Positions 3,096 to 31,632 of a DNA stretch of 32,928 nt are shown here, piece by piece (position 1 is the first letter of the stretch; each line of letters begins with the position of its first letter). Source of the stretch: Rhodospirillales bacterium. GTDB taxonomy: Bacteria; Pseudomonadota; Alphaproteobacteria; Reyranellales; Reyranellaceae. A model generated the notes under the pieces. The model searched no databases, was not told where the DNA came from, and saw only the letters and a list, made by a program, of their open reading frames with translations. The translations under genes and the position numbers were made by a program. The stretch spans positions 1-32,928 of the forward strand of contig JABMNB010000397.1 of the NCBI GenBank assembly GCA_013205335.1, given 5' to 3'.

Positions 3096-3572
3096 CTACT
3101 CGGTGGTGATGGGCACGCCGGGGACCTCTTTGGCGGTGCGGAACACCATCATGGATTTCACATGACTGACATTGGGCGCCGAGGTGAGGCGGGTGGTCAG
3201 GAATTTCTGATAGTCGTCCCAAGTCTCTGCCACAATCTTGAGCAGGAAGTCGGCTTCGCCGGCCAGCATGTGGCACTCGCGGACCTCGTCCCACTTGGCA
3301 ATCAGATCCTCGAACGACTTGAGGTCGGCCTCGGCCTGGCTGTTCAGTCCCACCAGGGCGAACACCGACACGCTGTAGCCCAGCGCCTCGGGGCTCAGTT
3401 CGGCGTGATAGCCCTTGATGATGCCGGCCCGCTCCAGGGCGCGCACCCGGCGCAGACAGGGGGGCGCTGAAATACCGGCACGTTCGGCCAGTTCCACATT
3501 TGTCATGCGTCCATTGGACTGCAGGTCGCTTAGAATTCGCCGGTCAATTCGATCGAGCTTTGCCCGAGCCAT
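3096..3572 (-). CDS. Lrp/AsnC family transcriptional regulator
   Basis: LDRIDRRILSDLQSNGRMTNVELAERAGISAPPCLRRVRALERAGIIKGYHA HTH plus AsnC ligand-binding domain. Confidence 0.95.
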   Translation of the reverse strand: MARAKLDRIDRRILSDLQSNGRMTNVELAERAGISAPPCLRRVRALERAGIIKGYHAELSPEALGYSVSVFALVGLNSQAEADLKSFEDLIAKWDEVRECHMLAGEADFLLKIVAETWDDYQKFLTTRLTSAPNVSHVKSMMVFRTAKEVPGVPITTE

Positions 3573-3663: not shown

Positions 3664-3749
3664 CGTGTGAAATCGACATCTGCCCGTGCAACTCCGTTGA
3701 GGTTTGCATATATGTCGAAGATATGCGGTTGGCGGGATGCGGAGCGGAC

Positions 3750-4721
3750 ATGGCAGAAACTCACCGAAGCAAAGTAATGATTCTCGGCTCCGGACCGGCT
3801 GGTTACACGGCGGCTATCTATGCCGCCCGCGCCAGCCTGAAGCCCATGCTGGTGCAGGGCATCCAGCCCGGCGGACAGCTCACGATCACGACCGATGTGG
3901 AGAACTATCCGGGCTTCGCGGACGTGATCCAGGGGCCGTGGCTGATGGAGCAGATGCAGAAGCAGGCCGAACATGTCGGCACGCAGCTGTTCTTCGACAC
4001 CATCGTGGACGTCGACATGACCCGGCGGCCGTTCGTATGTGTGGGCGATTCCGGCGATCACTATGAGGCCGACTCTCTCATCATCGCGACCGGCGCCACG
4101 GCGAAGTGGCTGGGCCTGCCGAGCGAGGAGACGTTCCGCGGCGGCGGCGTCTCGGCCTGTGCGACCTGCGACGGCTTCTTCTTCCGCAACAAGGAAGTGG
4201 TCGTGGTCGGTGGCGGCAATACGGCCGTGGAAGAGGCGCTATACCTGACGCACCATGCCTCGAAGGTGACGGTGGTCCATCGCCGCGACAGTTTCAGGGC
4301 CGAGAAGATCCTCCAGGATCGCCTGTTCAAGAATCCGAAGGTCTCCGTGTTGTGGGACCACACGGTGGAAGAGGTGCTGGGCGAGAAGACGCCGGCGCCG
4401 CTGGTCAAGGGCGTGCTCCTTCGCAATTTGAAGACCGGCGCGCAGCTCGAGATCGAAACCGACGGCTTCTTCGTGGCGATCGGCCACTCACCCAACACCG
4501 AGCTGTTCAAGGGCAAGCTCGAGATGGACGGCGAGGGCTACCTGATCACCAAGCCGGATTCGACCGCGACAAACATCGAGGGCGTCTATGCGGCCGGAGA
4601 CGTGCAGGACAAGGTCTTCCGGCAGGCCGTGACGGCCGCCGGTACGGGCTGCATGGCCGCGCTCGAGGCCGAGAAGTGGTTGGCAGGGCAGGAGGCGCGC
4701 CACGCCGAGGCAGCCGATTAA
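3750..4721 (+). CDS. trxB: Thioredoxin-disulfide reductase
   Basis: ILGSGPAGYTAAIYAARA FAD motif, CATCDG redox motif (SACATCDGFFF), NADPH GGGNTAVEEALYL; alternative in-frame ATG at 3723. Confidence 0.95.
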   Translation: MAETHRSKVMILGSGPAGYTAAIYAARASLKPMLVQGIQPGGQLTITTDVENYPGFADVIQGPWLMEQMQKQAEHVGTQLFFDTIVDVDMTRRPFVCVGDSGDHYEADSLIIATGATAKWLGLPSEETFRGGGVSACATCDGFFFRNKEVVVVGGGNTAVEEALYLTHHASKVTVVHRRDSFRAEKILQDRLFKNPKVSVLWDHTVEEVLGEKTPAPLVKGVLLRNLKTGAQLEIETDGFFVAIGHSPNTELFKGKLEMDGEGYLITKPDSTATNIEGVYAAGDVQDKVFRQAVTAAGTGCMAALEAEKWLAGQEARHAEAAD

Positions 4722-4750
4722 GCAGCAGACGCGGACAGGGAGTCATTTAA

Positions 4751-5641
4751 ATGGACTGGGACAAGCTGCGGATTTTCCAGGCCGTGGCAGATGCGGGCAG
4801 CTTCACGCATGCGGGCGAATCACTGAAGCTCAGCCAGTCGGCGATCTCGCGCCAGATCGGCGCGCTCGAAGAACAACTCGGCGTCATGCTGTTCCATCGC
4901 CATGCACGTGGCCTCATCCTCACGGAGCAGGGTGAGCTGCTCTATCGCACTGCGCGCGACATGGCCGCCAAGGTCAACACCGCCGAGGCGCTGTTGCGCG
5001 CCAACCAGGACAAGCCGGCCGGGCGGCTCAAGATCCACGCCACGGTCGGGTTCGGGTCGACCTGGCTCACCGCCCAGATGCACGAGTTCATCGCGCTCTA
5101 TCCCGAGATCGACGTCAGCCTTGTCCTGTCCGACAATGAACTCGACCTCGGCATGCGCGAGGCCGACGTGGCCATCCGCATGGTCATGCCGCGCCAGCCG
5201 GGACTGGTTCAGCGACATCTGCTGACGGTTCGCAGTCACGTCTATGCGTCGCACGGCTACGTGCAGAAGTACGGCAAGCCCAACACGGTCGACGAACTCG
5301 ACCAGCATCGTCTCATCATTTTCGGTGAGGATGCGCGTGCACCCGTGCAGGACGTGAACTGGCTGCTTCGCGAGGGTAACGCCGATCAGAACCCGCGGCT
5401 CGTGGTGCTGAGGGTCAACAACACCTATGGCATCTTCCGCGCCGTCGAATCGGGTCTGGGCATCGCCTCGCTGCCGGATTATCTCGCGCGCGAATCGACC
5501 AAGCTCGAGATGCTGCTGCCCGACCTCAATGTCCGGACGACGGATGTGTACTTCACATACCCTGAAGAGCTGCGTCACTCCAAGCGCATCGCCGTTTTCC
5601 GGGATTTCTTGCTGCGGAAGGTTGCGGAGACACGGTTTTGA
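4751..5641 (+). CDS. LysR-family transcriptional regulator, LsrB/VtlR-like by context
   Basis: MDWDKLRIFQAVADAGSFTHAGESLKLSQSAISRQIGALEEQLGVMLFHRHARGLILTEQG HTH; lies directly downstream of trxB as lsrB does in rhizobia. Confidence 0.9.
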   Translation: MDWDKLRIFQAVADAGSFTHAGESLKLSQSAISRQIGALEEQLGVMLFHRHARGLILTEQGELLYRTARDMAAKVNTAEALLRANQDKPAGRLKIHATVGFGSTWLTAQMHEFIALYPEIDVSLVLSDNELDLGMREADVAIRMVMPRQPGLVQRHLLTVRSHVYASHGYVQKYGKPNTVDELDQHRLIIFGEDARAPVQDVNWLLREGNADQNPRLVVLRVNNTYGIFRAVESGLGIASLPDYLARESTKLEMLLPDLNVRTTDVYFTYPEELRHSKRIAVFRDFLLRKVAETRF

Positions 5642-5754
5642 TCACTGAGACCTGCAGGATTGCATAGTTGGTGAAAGGCATGCACATGCCGCATGCCAGT
5701 GTCCAAAACTTCACCACTACCAATCCCGTCCATGAGGCATAGGTTAGGTACAGG

Positions 5755-5877
5755 TTTTCGACACGAGCGGTTTCGGCTGGTCGGTTCGAAGCTCGGGATC
5801 CTCTTGATCCCACGTCTCCCAGACGTGAAGCCTCCCTGTTTGACTCGCCGGGCCCTTGGGCCCGGCGTTTTTTTGTT
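5755..5877 (+). ncRNA. AbcR / alpha-r15-like trans-acting sRNA (5' end approximate)
   Basis: Successive hairpins GGGATC-CTCTT-GATCCC (5795-5811) and ACGTC-TCCCA-GACGT (5812-5826), a single-stranded AAGCCTCCCTGTTTGACT with anti-SD character, then a Rho-independent terminator. Located immediately downstream of an LsrB-like gene. Confidence 0.65.
5846..5874 (+). terminator. Strong intrinsic terminator CGCCGGGCC-CTTG-GGCCCGGCG-TTTTTTT
   Basis: GC-rich 9-10 bp stem followed by seven T residues. Confidence 0.93.
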
Positions 5878-24948: not shown

Positions 24949-24961
24949 ATAGATTTTGTCT

Positions 24962-26542
24962 ATGGAGGGTAATTTGACCCAGCCCACCCGCCGCGACACC
25001 CTCCGCCATGCGCTTGGCGGCGCCGCGGTCCTCGGCCTGATGGATCGTGCACTAATCGGTCCGGCCTCGGCGCAGGCCGCACCGAGGCGAGGCGGTACCT
25101 TGGTCTACGCCCAATGCTCGGGCAACCGTCGGGGCGGGGACGCCAGCAATACCCGCCACCCCTACTTCATGATCGATCTGATCACGCGCTCCGCCTACAA
25201 CACGCTCACCTGGGTCGACGAGGGCCTGAAAGTCGTCCCCGAACTGGCGACCAAGCTGGAGCCCGCTAGCGACAAGCTCGATGTCTGGGACGTGACGGTG
25301 CGCGAGGGCGTGCTGTTCCACGACGGCCGGGAGGTCACGGCCAAGGACTGGGCCGCATCGTTCGAGCTTCACCGCCGCCGCAACTTTGCTTCGCAGCAGA
25401 TCAAGTCCACCGAGGTCACGGGCAAGTATGGGCTGAGGTTTTTCCTCGACGCCGGCAACTCCGAGTTCCCTTACGTGCTGGCGGAGTACGACAACGTCGT
25501 CATGCCGGCCGACGACTGGGAGAAGATCGGCATGACGGGAGTGGGCACCGGCCCGTTCAAGATCGTGTCGGCCGACCCGCAGCGGCGCATGGTTTTCGAG
25601 CGCAATGAAAACTACTGGCGCAAGGACCAGCCCTACCTCGACAGGCTTGAGGTTGTGAATCGCGAAGGACAAATGGAATCGGCGATCAACGGCTTTCGCG
25701 CCCGCCAGTTCGACGCAGTGCTCAACATCGATCCGCGGCTCGTTCGCCAGCTACAAGGTGAGGCCGATACGGACGTCGTGCCGGCAACCTCCGGCGACCA
25801 GGCGGTCATCATCCTGCCCAAGCATCCGGGCTCGCCGTTCCTCGATGTGAGAATTCGTCGCGCGCTGGCCTACGCCATCGACCGCGAGGCGCTGCAGCGC
25901 ATCGTTTACGGCGGGTCGCGGTGGGGCTGGATCGGCAACGACAGCCATATGGCGGGTACCGATCCGATGTTCGTCGCCCGACCCGTCGGCCGCGACCTCG
26001 CCAAGGCCAAGGCATTGTTGGCCGAGGCCGGCTTCCCCAACGGCATTACACTGCCGACCCTTTATTATGCGCCGCAATGGCCCGAGATGGGGCGCTATTT
26101 CCAAGTCATCCAGGAGACCGTGAAGGAAGCTGGCATCACCCTGTCCATCGAGGAGCGGCCGAACGATGGATACCTCAAGTTCCGCCAAGGAGACGCCGAC
26201 GTCGCCAAGGGCAACTACCACAAGTTCGCCTACACCGCCGTCGGCCCGCGCAATCCCGGCATCAGCCTGTTCCGCATGCGCGGAGCCAACAACGAGTCCG
26301 GCTACTGGTCCGGTCCCGGCCATGACCGATACATGGAACTCTACCGCAAGGCCATGGTCACGCCCGACGCCGGCCAACGCAAGACGATCTACGCCGAGAT
26401 GCAGGGCATCTGCTACGACGAAGCCCCTGCAATCCTTCCGGCCGGCCGCAACAATATCCTCATAAAGAGGCCGACCGTTATGGGCCTGAAGAACCACCCA
26501 CAGCATTGGTCGGTCACCTGGGATGGCGTCTGGAAAGCCTGA
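24962..26542 (+). CDS. ABC transporter substrate-binding protein, family 5 (DppA/OppA-like), copy 1
   Basis: Tat-like RRDTLRHALGGAAVLG signal; DVTVREGVLFHDGREVTAKDWAASFELHRR; DVRIRRALAYAIDREALQRIVYGG. Confidence 0.93.
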   Translation: MEGNLTQPTRRDTLRHALGGAAVLGLMDRALIGPASAQAAPRRGGTLVYAQCSGNRRGGDASNTRHPYFMIDLITRSAYNTLTWVDEGLKVVPELATKLEPASDKLDVWDVTVREGVLFHDGREVTAKDWAASFELHRRRNFASQQIKSTEVTGKYGLRFFLDAGNSEFPYVLAEYDNVVMPADDWEKIGMTGVGTGPFKIVSADPQRRMVFERNENYWRKDQPYLDRLEVVNREGQMESAINGFRARQFDAVLNIDPRLVRQLQGEADTDVVPATSGDQAVIILPKHPGSPFLDVRIRRALAYAIDREALQRIVYGGSRWGWIGNDSHMAGTDPMFVARPVGRDLAKAKALLAEAGFPNGITLPTLYYAPQWPEMGRYFQVIQETVKEAGITLSIEERPNDGYLKFRQGDADVAKGNYHKFAYTAVGPRNPGISLFRMRGANNESGYWSGPGHDRYMELYRKAMVTPDAGQRKTIYAEMQGICYDEAPAILPAGRNNILIKRPTVMGLKNHPQHWSVTWDGVWKA

Positions 26543-26597
26543 CGCCGGGCTTTCTTCCGTCGGTCGATCTTCGAAGTCTTAGGATAGGGGGCAGCAC

Positions 26598-28166
26598 ATG
26601 CCTGCATTCAATCGCCGCACATTCATGAAAACGGGACTTGCCGGATCGGCCTTCCTTGCATCCCTCGATGTCGCCCTGCTCGGGTCGGCGGGGGCGCAGG
26701 ACGGAGCGCCGAAGAAGGGAGGTACGCTGTCCTACGCGCAGCTCTCGGCCAACCGTCGCTCGGCCGATGCCACGAACGCCCGGCATCCCTATTTCATCGT
26801 CGACGCCAATACGCGTCTTCAGTGGAATTGCCTGACCTGGGTCGATGAAAAGCTGGGCTGGCAGCTTGAGGCCGCCAGCAAGGTCGAACCCACTGACGAC
26901 AAGTTGAACGTGTGGGACGTGACGCTGCGCGAGGGCGTGCTGTTCCACAACGGCCGCGAGATGACGTCCGAGGACGTCGCATCCTCCTTCGCTTATCACC
27001 GGCTGAATGCGCCGTTTGCACGCCAGATCGTCAAGATCGAGCCGGTTTCGAAGTACGTTACCCGGTTTACGCTTGAGGGCGGCAATGCGGAATTCCCCTA
27101 TATCCTCGCCGAGTACAACAGCGTCATCATGCCGGCCGCCGACGCCAAGACCATCGGCATGGACGGCATCGGCAGCGGGCCCTTCCGGATCGTTGCCACT
27201 GACCCCAATCGCTCTGTGATCATGGAGCGGTTCGACGGCTATTGGCGCAAGGGACTGCCGCTGCTCGATCGTGTCGAAGTCCACAATCGTGAAGGCCAGC
27301 AGGAGTCGGCGTTGAACGGGCTGCGCTCGGGCCAGTTCGATGCAGTGCTCAACATCGACGCCCGTGCCGCAGCACAGTTCGCGTCCGATGCCGCCTACGA
27401 CATCGAGACCGCCAAGGGCGGCTACAGCTTCGTCATCCAGCTCCCCAAGCACCCGGGCTCGCCATTTCTCGACAAGCGCGTACGACAGGCATTCGCCTAC
27501 GCGATCGACCGCGACGCCATCGTGCGTATTGCCTATGGCGGCAAGTACGGCTGGGTTGGCAACGACAGCCACCTCATGGTTACCGACCCCGCCTATGTGG
27601 TCCGCCAGGGCGGTCGCGACATCGCGCGCGCCAGGAAGCTGCTGGCCGAAGCCGGCTATCCGAATGGCATCACCCTGCCGACGCTCTACTGGAGCCCGCA
27701 ACTGCCCGAGGCCGGCCGCTACTTTCAGGTGGTGCAGCAGTCTGCCAAGGAAGCCGGCATCGTATTTGCCATCGAGGAGCGGCCCAACGACGGCTACATT
27801 CAGTTCCGTACCGGCGACAACGACCTGTCGAAGGGCAACTTCCACAAGTTCGCGATGACCGCCGTCGGGTCGCGGAACCCTGGCATCTCGCTGTTCCGCA
27901 TGCGCGACGCCTTCGTCGAGAGTGGCCACTGGCGCGGCCCCGAGCACGACCAGTACATCGCGCTCTATCGGCAGGCGATGGTGACACCCGACGCCGGCAA
28001 GCGGAAGGCGATCTACGCCGAGATGCAGAAGATCCTGCACGAGGAGGTGCCGGCCATCCTGCCGGCCGGCGGCGACACCTTCCTGGTGAAGCGCAAGAAC
28101 ATCCGCAACATGCCCTACCATCCGCAGATCTGGTCGATCCGCTTCGACGAAGTCTGGAAGGCGTGA
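26598..28166 (+). CDS. ABC transporter substrate-binding protein, family 5, copy 2
   Basis: NRRTFMKTGLAGSAFLAS Tat signal; colinear with copy 1 across the whole length (DVTLREGVLFHNGREMTSEDVASSFAYHR). Confidence 0.95.
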   Translation: MPAFNRRTFMKTGLAGSAFLASLDVALLGSAGAQDGAPKKGGTLSYAQLSANRRSADATNARHPYFIVDANTRLQWNCLTWVDEKLGWQLEAASKVEPTDDKLNVWDVTLREGVLFHNGREMTSEDVASSFAYHRLNAPFARQIVKIEPVSKYVTRFTLEGGNAEFPYILAEYNSVIMPAADAKTIGMDGIGSGPFRIVATDPNRSVIMERFDGYWRKGLPLLDRVEVHNREGQQESALNGLRSGQFDAVLNIDARAAAQFASDAAYDIETAKGGYSFVIQLPKHPGSPFLDKRVRQAFAYAIDRDAIVRIAYGGKYGWVGNDSHLMVTDPAYVVRQGGRDIARARKLLAEAGYPNGITLPTLYWSPQLPEAGRYFQVVQQSAKEAGIVFAIEERPNDGYIQFRTGDNDLSKGNFHKFAMTAVGSRNPGISLFRMRDAFVESGHWRGPEHDQYIALYRQAMVTPDAGKRKAIYAEMQKILHEEVPAILPAGGDTFLVKRKNIRNMPYHPQIWSIRFDEVWKA

Positions 28167-28215
28167 CCGGGGCAATGGCCGCAGCACAGCACCTGGCAGT
28201 ACATGGGGCGGCGCC

Positions 28216-29169
28216 GTGCTGAGCGCAGTGTTACGTCGCGTTTTCCTGTCTCTGCTGACTCTCTTCTTTCTCGCGGCCTTCATCTTTGCCGCCACCGAAA
28301 TCCTGCCTGGCGACGCCCTCGACGTGACGCTGTCGGCAGACGAAATGGCCATGATGCCACCGGAGCGACTCGCCGAGATGAAGCGCGACCTCGGGCTCGA
28401 CCGGCCCGCGGTGGAGCGGCTCGGCGCTTTTCTTCTGGGCGTGGCGCAGCTCGATTTCGGCCGGACCATCATTTCGAGGGCGCCGGTCGTCGACATCGTC
28501 GCCTACCCGCTGCGCAACTCGCTGCTGCTCGCGGGGGCGGTGATCGTCACGGCGCTGCCGCTGGCGCTGATCCTCGGCGTGAGTGCGGCTAGGTGGTATC
28601 GCAGGCCGCTCGACAACGTGGTTTCGACGGGCGTCATCGTCGGCTACTCGGTGCCGGAGTTCGTCATCGGCACCTTCCTCGTGATGCTGTTCGCCGTGAC
28701 CTGGCCGCTGTTCCCGGCAACCATCACGGCCAGCACGCGCGACCCCGCGCTTACCCTGCTGGCTGCGGCGCCGTTGCCGGTCGCCACGATCCTGATCGGC
28801 TCGATCGCCTATCTCGCGCGCATCCTCCGCGTCGGCATGGTCGACGCCTTGGCCAGCGACTTCGTCGAGCGCTTGCGCCTGATGGGCGTGCCGGAGTGGC
28901 GCGTTCTGCTGCTGCATGCGTTGCCCGCGGCGGTGGTGCCCAGTCTCATGGCGACCGCGCTTTATGCCGCCGCCCTCGTCTCGGGCATCGTCGTCGTCGA
29001 ACTCGTCTTCGCCTATCCTGGGCTCGGCCAGGAACTGGTACGTGCCGTGACGCGGCGCGAGGTCCACGTCATCCAGGCGATCGCGCTGGCCTCGGCGGCG
29101 ATCGTTGTCGTCTTCAATCTGCTGGCCGACCTCGCGATCCTGGCCCTCGATCCCCGCACGAGGATGTAA
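28216..29169 (+). CDS. ABC transporter permease (DppB-type)
   Basis: RRVFLSLLTLFFLAAFIFAATEILPGDAL and EWRVLLLHALPAAVVPSLMATALYAAALVSGIVVVELVFAYPGLGQELVRAVTRRE. Confidence 0.95.
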   Translation: MLSAVLRRVFLSLLTLFFLAAFIFAATEILPGDALDVTLSADEMAMMPPERLAEMKRDLGLDRPAVERLGAFLLGVAQLDFGRTIISRAPVVDIVAYPLRNSLLLAGAVIVTALPLALILGVSAARWYRRPLDNVVSTGVIVGYSVPEFVIGTFLVMLFAVTWPLFPATITASTRDPALTLLAAAPLPVATILIGSIAYLARILRVGMVDALASDFVERLRLMGVPEWRVLLLHALPAAVVPSLMATALYAAALVSGIVVVELVFAYPGLGQELVRAVTRREVHVIQAIALASAAIVVVFNLLADLAILALDPRTRM

Positions 29170-30011
29170 TGGGGATCACGATCCGCAGACTGCTGCGCCG
29201 GCCGCTCACCGCCCTCGGCATCGTCCTGGTCTTGGTCCATCTTACCGTCGCGTTGATCGCCCCGTCGATCGTGCCCTTCGACCCGTTCAAGCTGCTCGAT
29301 GCGCCGCTTGAGCCGCCGGGCACCACCTACTGGCTGGGGACAGACGAACTCGGCCGCGATTTCCTGTCACGCCTGCTGATGGGCGGCAGAATCGCGATCG
29401 TGGCCTCCCTGGCCGCCGGCTTCATCGCCACGCTGGGCGGCGGCCTGCTGGGCCTTGCCATGGCCTACTATCGCGGCCCGTTCGACGACGTCGTCTCGCG
29501 CATCGTCGAGATGAAGCTCGCCATCCCGTCGATCCTCTTCGTCTCGCTGTTCGTCACCGGCTTCGGCCAGTCGCTCGCCGTGCTCGTCTTCGTCATGGCC
29601 GTCATCAAGATGATGGGGGTGATCCGCACCGTTCGCGCCCAGGGCATCGTGCTGATGGAGCAAGGCTACGTGAAGGTGGCCCAGATGCGCGGCGAGCACG
29701 GTCCCGCCATCATCCTGCGCGAGATGCTGCCCAACGTCGCCGATCTGCTGACCGTCGAGTTCGCGTTGCGCACTTCGAGCGCGTTGCTGCTCGTTTCCGC
29801 CCTGTCTTTCCTCGGTCTCGGCCTGTCGCCGCCGACCCCGGACTGGGGCCTGATGATCCACGACGGCCTGCAGTCGATCCGTTCCGAGCCGTGGCTCATC
29901 CTGGCGCCGGCGCTCTGCATCTCGACGCTCGTCATCGGTCTCAATTTCGCCACCGAGGGCATCGCCGACGCGGTCGGACTGGAGGCCGCCCGTGGCGTTG
30001 CCGGGCACTGA
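29169..30011 (+). CDS. ABC transporter permease (DppC-type)
   Basis: GTTYWLGTDELGRDFLSRLLMGGRIAIVASLAAG; ATG at 29169 overlaps previous TAA. Confidence 0.95.
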   Translation: MGITIRRLLRRPLTALGIVLVLVHLTVALIAPSIVPFDPFKLLDAPLEPPGTTYWLGTDELGRDFLSRLLMGGRIAIVASLAAGFIATLGGGLLGLAMAYYRGPFDDVVSRIVEMKLAIPSILFVSLFVTGFGQSLAVLVFVMAVIKMMGVIRTVRAQGIVLMEQGYVKVAQMRGEHGPAIILREMLPNVADLLTVEFALRTSSALLLVSALSFLGLGLSPPTPDWGLMIHDGLQSIRSEPWLILAPALCISTLVIGLNFATEGIADAVGLEAARGVAGH

Positions 30012-31632
30012 GCCGCTGGTCCGCTGCGAGAGCCTGTCGATCGGCTATGCCGACGCGGACGGCGGTCTGGTGCCGGTGGTTTCCGACGTGTCCTTCACCA
30101 TCGCGCCCGGCGAAGCGGTCGGCATCGTTGGCGAGTCGGGCTCCGGCAAGTCGACGCTGGCGCGTGCCTTGCTGGGCTACCGGCGTGCCGGCAGCGCCTT
30201 CCTGGGAGGACGCCTTTTCTATCGAGACACCGACATGGCGGCGGCCACGGTCACGCCGGCGGTGGTGGCGCTGCGTGGCACGGCGGTCGCCATGGTGCCG
30301 CAAAATCCACTCGCTTCGCTTACTTTCCACATGCCGGTCGGCCGCCAGGTCGTCGAGGTTCTGCGAACCCGCGCCGGCCTCGGTCGCGCTGCCGCCGGCG
30401 ACCGCATGCTCGAGCTGCTGCGTCGCACCGGCCTGCCCGAGCCGACCGAACTGGCCCGGCGCTATCCCCACCAGCTGTCCGGCGGCCAGCGCCAGCGCGT
30501 CGTCATCGCCGCGGCACTCGCCTGCAACCCCGACCTGCTGGTGCTCGACGAACCGACAACCGCTCTCGACAAGACGACGGAGGCCCAGGTTCTGGAACTC
30601 GTCGCCGACCTGCGCCGCGACAGCGGCGCGGCGCTGGTCCTGGTCACGCACGACCTCAATGTCGTGGCCCGCGTTTGCGAACGGGTCCTGGTGATGAAGG
30701 ACGGCCGGATCGTCGAGGACGGCCCGGTCGGCCGGGTTTTCAGCCGGCCGCGCACCGCCTACGCCCGCCAGCTCCTGGGGGCGGCGCTGCTGATCGATCC
30801 GCAACGTGCGCCGCAAGCGCGGCCAAGAACCGCCGAGCTGCTGTCGTTGCGCGACGTTGCCTTTTCGCATGCCCGCGCCGGCTGGTTCGGACGCGCGCCA
30901 GCGGTTCGCCGCACGCTCGACCAGATCAGTGTCGATGTCGGACGCGGCGAGGTTCTAGGCGTGATCGGCGAGTCGGGGTCGGGCAAGACCACGCTCGGGC
31001 TGCTGCTGGCTGGCATGCTGACCCCACAGGCCGGCGCCATCTGCTTCGAAGGCCACCCGCTGGCTCCGCACGTCGCCGACCGGACGCGCGACCAGCGCCG
31101 GCGCATCCAGATGGTTTTCCAGGACCCGCTCTCCTCGCTCAACCCCCGCCAGACCGTCGGCAGTGCGCTGATCCGGCCGCTTCGTCACTTCTTCGGCCTC
31201 GACTGCACGGCGGCGCACGAGCGCACCGCCGCCCTGCTCGCCAGGCTAGGCATGGGTCCCGAGTATCTCGACCGCTTCCCGCGCCAGCTGTCGGGGGGAC
31301 AGCAGCAGCGCGTGGCCATTGCGCGCGCCTTCGCCGCGGAGCCCGACCTGCTGATCTGCGACGAGATCACCTCTGCGCTCGACGCCTCCGTCCAGGCCCA
31401 GGTACTCGATCATCTGCTCGAGCTGCAGCGCGGTAGCGCTGCGGCCATGCTGGTGATCACCCACGACCTGTCGGTGATCTGGAAAGTTGCGCCGCGCGTC
31501 ATCGTGTTGAAGGACGGCCACATCGTCGAGCAGGGCGCGACCGAGGCGGTGTTCGGCCATCCCAAGGACCGTTACACCGCCGATCTGCTCGAGTCGGCGA
31601 CGCTTGCAGCACGCCTGGTTGCCACCGCCTGA
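29992..31632 (+). CDS. Dipeptide-type ABC transporter ATPase with two fused nucleotide-binding domains (GTG start)
   Basis: Two Walker A motifs (GESGSGKSTLA, GESGSGKTTLG) and two signature motifs (LSGGQRQRV, LSGGQQQRV). Confidence 0.96.
   Translation: MALPGTEPLVRCESLSIGYADADGGLVPVVSDVSFTIAPGEAVGIVGESGSGKSTLARALLGYRRAGSAFLGGRLFYRDTDMAAATVTPAVVALRGTAVAMVPQNPLASLTFHMPVGRQVVEVLRTRAGLGRAAAGDRMLELLRRTGLPEPTELARRYPHQLSGGQRQRVVIAAALACNPDLLVLDEPTTALDKTTEAQVLELVADLRRDSGAALVLVTHDLNVVARVCERVLVMKDGRIVEDGPVGRVFSRPRTAYARQLLGAALLIDPQRAPQARPRTAELLSLRDVAFSHARAGWFGRAPAVRRTLDQISVDVGRGEVLGVIGESGSGKTTLGLLLAGMLTPQAGAICFEGHPLAPHVADRTRDQRRRIQMVFQDPLSSLNPRQTVGSALIRPLRHFFGLDCTAAHERTAALLARLGMGPEYLDRFPRQLSGGQQQRVAIARAFAAEPDLLICDEITSALDASVQAQVLDHLLELQRGSAAAMLVITHDLSVIWKVAPRVIVLKDGHIVEQGATEAVFGHPKDRYTADLLESATLAARLVATA

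Follow-up and report, generated by a model that had tools for sequence, protein, structure and literature searches.

To our knowledge, a pair formed by an LsrB/VtlR-type regulator and a small RNA (sRNA) is known only from rhizobia. There the pair steers host interaction and nutrient uptake.

Activation of an sRNA gene by LsrB/VtlR was shown experimentally only for abcR1 in rhizobia (PMC8844928, PMC7486931). The published LsrB/VtlR box is GCAT-N3-TG-N3-T (PMC7486931). In S. meliloti, LsrB binds this box at positions −61 to −49 of the abcR1 promoter, PabcR1, and abcR1 depends on LsrB (PMC8844928; also PMC7486931); tandem T-N11-A motifs are located upstream of the box, and removal of the box lowers the promoter >22-fold (PMC8844928). 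LsrB of A. tumefaciens was described as a thiol redox sensor acting via C144–C273; the same paper (of 2025) called LsrB unique to Rhizobiales, while its tree included two non-rhizobial alphaproteobacteria, C. crescentus and R. sphaeroides (PMC11975290). Two other sRNAs, SorX and SorY of Rhodobacter, target transporters (PMC9438474, PMC8307010); SorX derives from the 3′ UTR of an OmpR-type gene (PMC9438474).

We analysed a stretch of 32,928 nucleotides of a Reyranellaceae genome (contig JABMNB010000397.1), referred to as the window. Analysis of its sequence makes it probable that the window encodes a LysR-activated, Hfq-type, trans-acting sRNA with anti-Shine–Dalgarno (anti-SD) segments, a member of a class-wide family whose best-supported target is the lysR mRNA (negative feedback).

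The sRNA gene and its operator

The first-pass annotation of the window had placed an AbcR-like sRNA gene at 5755–5877, behind trxB and an LsrB/VtlR-like LysR gene. The features of the locus are as follows (the basis of each is given in brackets).

3723–4721, + strand: trxB, thioredoxin reductase (NCBIfam TIGR01292, 412.9 bits, over the cut-off)
4735–4742, + strand: ACAGGGAG in the Shine–Dalgarno (SD) region of lysR, complementary over all 8 nt to CUCCCUGU of the sRNA (5832–5839); probable target site (complementarity counts)
4751–5641, + strand: LysR-type regulator, LsrB/VtlR orthologue with no cysteines (Pfam HTH_1 and LysR_substrate; PDB 9HH1; cysteine census)
5662–5673, + strand: GCAT-AGT-TG-GTG, possible second LsrB half-site, the published box minus its last base (sequence)
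5680–5694, no strand: ATGC-N7-GCAT palindrome, predicted LsrB/VtlR-type operator; extended form GGCATGC...GCATGCC at 5678–5697 (sequence comparison)
5740–5745, + strand: TAGGTT, candidate −10 element (suggested by its conserved T, A and TT)
5755–5874, + strand: predicted sRNA gene (sequence, BLASTN, fold, core-model matches, conservation profile)
5795–5811, + strand: hairpin 1, letters variable, pairing retained (fold of the upstream 42 nt, compensatory changes)
5812–5826, + strand: hairpin 2, near-invariant class-wide, with CUCCCA (5816–5821) extending into the loop (core alignment)
5830–5845, + strand: unpaired GCCUCCCUGUUUGACU, putative anti-SD seed (centroid fold and core alignment)
5846–5874, + strand: Rho-independent terminator with U run (terminator scan)

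A conserved block, a stable fold and a terminator at 5755–5877 argue for a real sRNA gene. The fold of this region has −51.2 kcal/mol (z = −2.6), and none of 200 dinucleotide shuffles was equally stable. The architecture drawn by the first-pass annotation, two hairpins, unpaired CCUCCCUGUUUGACU and a terminator, was confirmed, all parts lying within 5795–5874. Hairpin 1 reads GGGATC (5795–5800), CTCTT, GATCCC (5806–5811) and hairpin 2 reads ACGTC (5812–5816), TCCCA, GACGT (5822–5826); the unpaired stretch at 5830–5845 is GCCTCCCTGTTTGACT. The terminator has a stem at 5846–5867 with nine G–C pairs, followed by a T run at 5868–5874. It is the single terminator-like site of the region and would form the 3′ end of the sRNA. 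Both anti-SD motifs are present as well: CUCCCA in the loop and the unpaired CCUCCCUGUU. Compensatory changes between families support hairpin 1 (5, 4, 3 and 3 pair types at pairs 1, 4, 5 and 6), and the 42 nt located 5′ of the core have a mean folding z of −3.3 in 34 loci outside the genus of the window. The ACGUC/GACGU stem of hairpin 2 is almost invariant across the loci compared, which makes covariation hardly informative on whether that stem forms.

BLASTN searches with 5755–5877 produced matches in 72 of 101 genomes; 57 of these belong to the window's genus, for which 61 genomes were searched, and the remaining 15 to other genera. An alignment of 32 loci from the genus shows a conserved block at ∼5750–5876, with a sharp drop after the terminator, and a second, separate conserved island at 5678–5700. 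Between families, hairpin 2 and the unpaired CCUCCCUGUU are near-invariant. Two members of the genus (L036 of genome G028 and L051 of G034) carry an sRNA with a diverged or truncated 5′ part; no LysR match was seen within the stretches fetched for these two loci.

The exact palindrome is present in nearly all loci of the window's genus. Among 206 LysR loci, many of them close relatives, 119 have an exact ATGC-N7-GCAT within 350 nt 3′ of the LysR gene, as compared with 0.6% of shuffled regions. Outside the genus and the rhizobia, an operator with at most one mismatch was found in 38 of 39 sRNA-bearing loci versus 9 of the 31 in which no sRNA was recognised; recognition of the sRNA relied here on a simple pattern, so diverged sRNAs could be present in some of the nine. 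The right half of the window palindrome is GCAT-GCC-AG-TGT, with AG where the published box has TG; the same one-letter departure occurs in some rhizobial loci (Pararhizobium, Hoeflea). The GCATA of the possible half-site at 5662 is conserved in the genus.

If the GCAT at 5691 is set at −61, the transcription start site (TSS) would fall at ∼5752, where the conserved block begins; the start at 5755 given by the first-pass annotation thus agrees with an independent estimate from operator geometry, and we predict the TSS near 5750–5755. A scan of the region for the sigma-70 consensus gave no good match.

Four other loci (L104, L106, L108 and L117) have an LsrB-type operator, exact or with one mismatch, 3′ of LysR and no core of the type described below; most of them carry other CUCCC-bearing hairpins and are candidates for further sRNA types in the same slot.

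Distribution of the sRNA and of its LysR neighbour

A covariance model built on the sRNA core (model R1) detected matches in 164 of 385 sampled alphaproteobacterial genomes, representing 116 of 276 genera (about two-fifths); E-values of the matches listed range from 1e-18 to ∼1e-9. RNAalifold omitted the terminator from R1, which therefore rests mainly on core sequence. Among the LysR-bearing genomes with a listed R1 match (n = 59), the sRNA is located 160–501 nt 3′ of the LysR match, on the same strand, in 48, at a distance of 1.9–5.7 kb from lysR in five and elsewhere in six. The lysR–sRNA linkage is well beyond mere co-occurrence within genomes. No Rfam 15 model reached its gathering score at the sRNA in a scan of the window, and searching the literature for CUCCCUGUU retrieved no paper on an sRNA. 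The sRNA is a class-wide alphaproteobacterial family without an Rfam entry of its own, and one worth having such an entry.

Several genomes depart from the one-copy arrangement. In L128 (genome G228), three tandem core copies follow one LysR gene (∼2596–2662, 2895–2960 and 3126–3190), reminiscent of tandem abcR1/abcR2. Genomes G295, G305 and G265 have four to six R1 matches each, several of them not mutually adjacent, which points to a possible multicopy sRNA. Lineages thus differ in how many anti-SD loops they carry: the extra hairpins that several families have 5′ of the core (L034, L040, L042, L043, L062, L140 and L148) likewise present CUCCC in the loop.

The assignment of the LysR gene to the LsrB/VtlR type stood: the best PDB match of its product is A. 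tumefaciens LsrB (9HH1) with 322 bits, versus 110 bits for the runner-up. So did the remark that the order trxB–lysR–sRNA, which is shared with Rhizobiaceae, is that of the abcR locus, in a genome that is not rhizobial. The trxB gene is directly upstream of lysR in all 36 loci from the genus and all 79 rhizobial loci (counting in both groups only loci with enough upstream sequence to judge) and in 65 of 81 loci of other alphaproteobacteria. Of the 190 class genomes sampled, 94 encode a protein of LsrB type (E ≤ 1e-75). LsrB is, contrary to the earlier statement (PMC11975290), not unique to Rhizobiales.

The window LysR has V and T at the positions of C144 and C273, and the 32 distinct LysR proteins of the genus have no cysteine at all. 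Both C144 and C273 are present in 76 of 76 distinct rhizobial proteins and in none of the 103 others aligned. As the window LysR is devoid of cysteine, the thiol switch of LsrB cannot apply to it, and the protein would have to respond to another signal, such as a small ligand.

Proposed circuit and candidate targets

In the circuit that we propose, an sRNA of ∼120 nt, acting in trans, would have a promoter of its own and be encoded between lysR (of lsrB/vtlR type) and the gene that follows. LysR protein would bind ATGC-N7-GCAT ∼60–70 bp upstream of the start and activate the sRNA, as the operator and its geometry suggest. The U run of the terminator would bind Hfq (an hfq gene, 113 bits, is present in the genome), while the CUCCCA loop and the unpaired CCUCCCUGUU would pair with SD regions and block translation; the C-rich unpaired anti-SD segments, the U-rich terminator and the hfq gene together point to Hfq-dependent translational repression. 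The sRNA is probably a translational repressor of mRNAs, and the mRNA of the neighbouring lysR is most likely one of them. In the window's genus this would make a negative feedback, LysR turning on the sRNA and the sRNA dampening LysR via lysR mRNA.

Any anti-SD segment pairs to some extent with any strong SD sequence. In the genus, 21 of the 28 distinct lysR leaders, which are related by descent, contain a 7–10 nt perfect complement to the unpaired segment (10 nt, ACAGGGAGGC, in six of them), versus 8 of 434 other genes of the window's genome with a complement of at least 7 nt, two of these having 8 nt. Leaders of the downstream DUF6492 gene contain such a complement in none of 26 cases. The lysR SD region in the genus is ACAGGGAGGC or parts of it, perfectly complementary to the invariant GCCUCCCUGU. 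An 8-nt complement was also found in the lysR leader of L070, which represents the other genus of the family. Complementarity to lysR is rare outside the family (4 of 69 loci of other alphaproteobacteria, L070 included, and 2 of 66 rhizobial loci), so the feedback would be a local trait. Judged by these complementary sequences, lysR mRNA is the best-supported candidate target in the window's genus.

Repression of ABC-transporter mRNAs, suggested by the first-pass annotation, received little or no support in silico, the pairing excess over other genes being weak or absent. Target prediction covered 435 genes of the window's genome, on contigs picked for ABC-transporter genes; the family 5 binding proteins of the window rank 306 and 384 of the 435 starts, and after SD strength was removed the starts of family 5 binding proteins gave p = 0.19. 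An apparent pairing excess at LivK-type starts (p = 0.004) was matched by the 16S anti-SD control (p = 0.005), so this signal mostly reflects strong SD sequences; after correction for SD strength p was 0.03 (uncorrected), with none of the 14 starts in the top 25. Parts of ABC transporters make up four of the eight other genes with a complement of at least 7 nt, a proportion from which nothing can be inferred given how the contigs were picked. The case for ABC-transporter targeting is weak.

The window itself contains, at 24956–31632, an operon for a dipeptide-type ABC transporter with two family 5 solute-binding proteins, a permease and a double ABC ATPase. The sRNA pairs in no special way with the SD region of either binding protein.

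Alternative explanations and comparison with known systems

The first-pass annotation had assigned the sRNA to the ar15/AbcR family, repressing ABC-transporter mRNAs. The locus is indeed the same as that of abcR1/2 (PMC7486931), the operator upstream is of LsrB type and the common CUCCCA is identical to the Brucella M1 motif (PMC5461406). Nevertheless, the ar15 covariance model (RF02345) gave no gathering match at the window sRNA, reached no score of 40 bits or more there and was not listed at E-values up to 10, though it works on true AbcR loci, with 61–121 bits just 3′ of lsrB in 11 of 11 named Rhizobiales loci scanned. This positive control was redone on named rhizobial loci because an ar15 search of 190 genomes of the class had returned no match, controls included, and was uninformative by itself. 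No ar15 match over the cut-off was found in the 38 genomes with an LsrB-type LysR but no listed core match. In the reverse direction, R1 scores at most 15 bits on AbcR loci and, as a negative control, had no match in 34 named rhizobial genomes. The two RNAs also arrange their parts differently. AbcR has the CUCCCA loop, then GUUCCCCUC, then the hairpin GGAGGUUU..ACCUUC, then the terminator, while the window sRNA has a variable hairpin, then the CUCCCA loop, then CCUCCCUGUU, then the terminator. Where AbcR carries M1 (CUCCCA) in the first hairpin and M2 (GUUCCC(CUC)) between the first and second hairpins, the window sRNA carries CUCCCA in the second hairpin and CCUCCCUGUU instead of GUUCCC. With the pairing statistics of family 5 and LivK-type starts given above also speaking against it, we regard membership in ar15/AbcR as unlikely: the window sRNA is the equivalent of AbcR by place and regulator, not a member of the family by sequence and structure.

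An RNA of SorX/SorY type, either induced by stress or released when the upstream mRNA is processed at its 3′ end, and lowering uptake by transporters (the targets known for SorX and SorY), is an explanation that we consider improbable while leaving it some weight. SorX (RF02784) is the nearest Rfam model (42.4 bits, E 4.3e-9), its alignment covering CCUCCCUGUU.GAC and the terminator, and in Rhodobacteraceae the RNA right after an LsrB-type LysR matches SorX above the cut-off (L120, 52.3 bits) or SorY (L119, 62.1 bits). Against this, the window sRNA stays below both curated cut-offs (46.6 bits for SorX; 28.9 bits versus 111 for SorY, RF02651), its 5′ half differs, its neighbour is a LysR gene rather than an OmpR-type gene, and the operator together with a conserved block at the expected start argues for a promoter of its own. 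SorX was rejected as a simple label, since the match is below the cut-off and spans only the 3′ half. The region might also be nothing but the terminator and 3′ UTR of a trxB–lysR operon with no activity in trans, given its same-strand position behind lysR and the strong terminator at its end. This we consider highly improbable: a terminator needs no invariant loop and 16-nt unpaired segment class-wide, copies exist away from lysR and in tandem (L128), and the operator is located between lysR and the RNA.

Returning to the proposed LysR-activated sRNA, we tentatively suggest, as a possibility that falls short of being probable, that an LsrB/VtlR operator with an anti-SD sRNA is an ancestral alphaproteobacterial circuit and that the window RNA is its old form. 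Under an unchanged regulator, single lineages would then have replaced this RNA or evolved a descendant of it, namely AbcR in rhizobia and RNAs of SorX/SorY type in Rhodobacteraceae, with feedback on the regulator mRNA in the window's family and the thiol redox switch of LsrB as a late rhizobial addition. LsrB-type proteins occur in about half of the sampled genomes of the class, and their genes are often followed by the same operator and an sRNA; this makes the origin of AbcR testable. The signal sensed outside rhizobia is predicted not to be thiol oxidation at C144/C273, and the predicted lysR feedback is a simple, checkable circuit.

The window sRNA is positionally equivalent to AbcR, with a 3′ half common to SorX/SorY. 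It resembles AbcR in lying after trxB–lsrB behind an LsrB-type operator, in presenting CUCCCA in a hairpin loop and another C-rich segment unpaired, and in its terminator and a length of ∼115–120 nt; both families have tandem copies in some genomes (L128 here). It differs in that AbcR is devoid of the CCUCCCUGUU segment and forms an extra hairpin after its second motif, ahead of the terminator, and in that rhizobial LsrB has C144/C273 whereas the window LysR has no cysteine. With SorX/SorY it shares CCUCCCUGUU-GAC followed by the terminator; the ACGUCUCCCAGACGU hairpin of the window sRNA is absent from SorX/SorY of Rhodobacter, and the source gene of SorX is of OmpR type while the neighbour here is LysR. 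MmgR (suhB, RF00519; 23.6 bits) and Atu_C7 (RF02501; 18.3 bits) show weak likeness in the C-rich segment and terminator, with the window far below their cut-offs (41 and 45 bits) and a different structure. The OxyR–OxyS pair is alike as a LysR-type regulator beside an sRNA that it activates (PMC11975290), activation being a prediction in our case, but the RNA is unrelated and the window LysR belongs to another subfamily, without redox cysteines. Different but similar anti-SD RNAs fill one regulatory slot behind the LsrB-type LysR.
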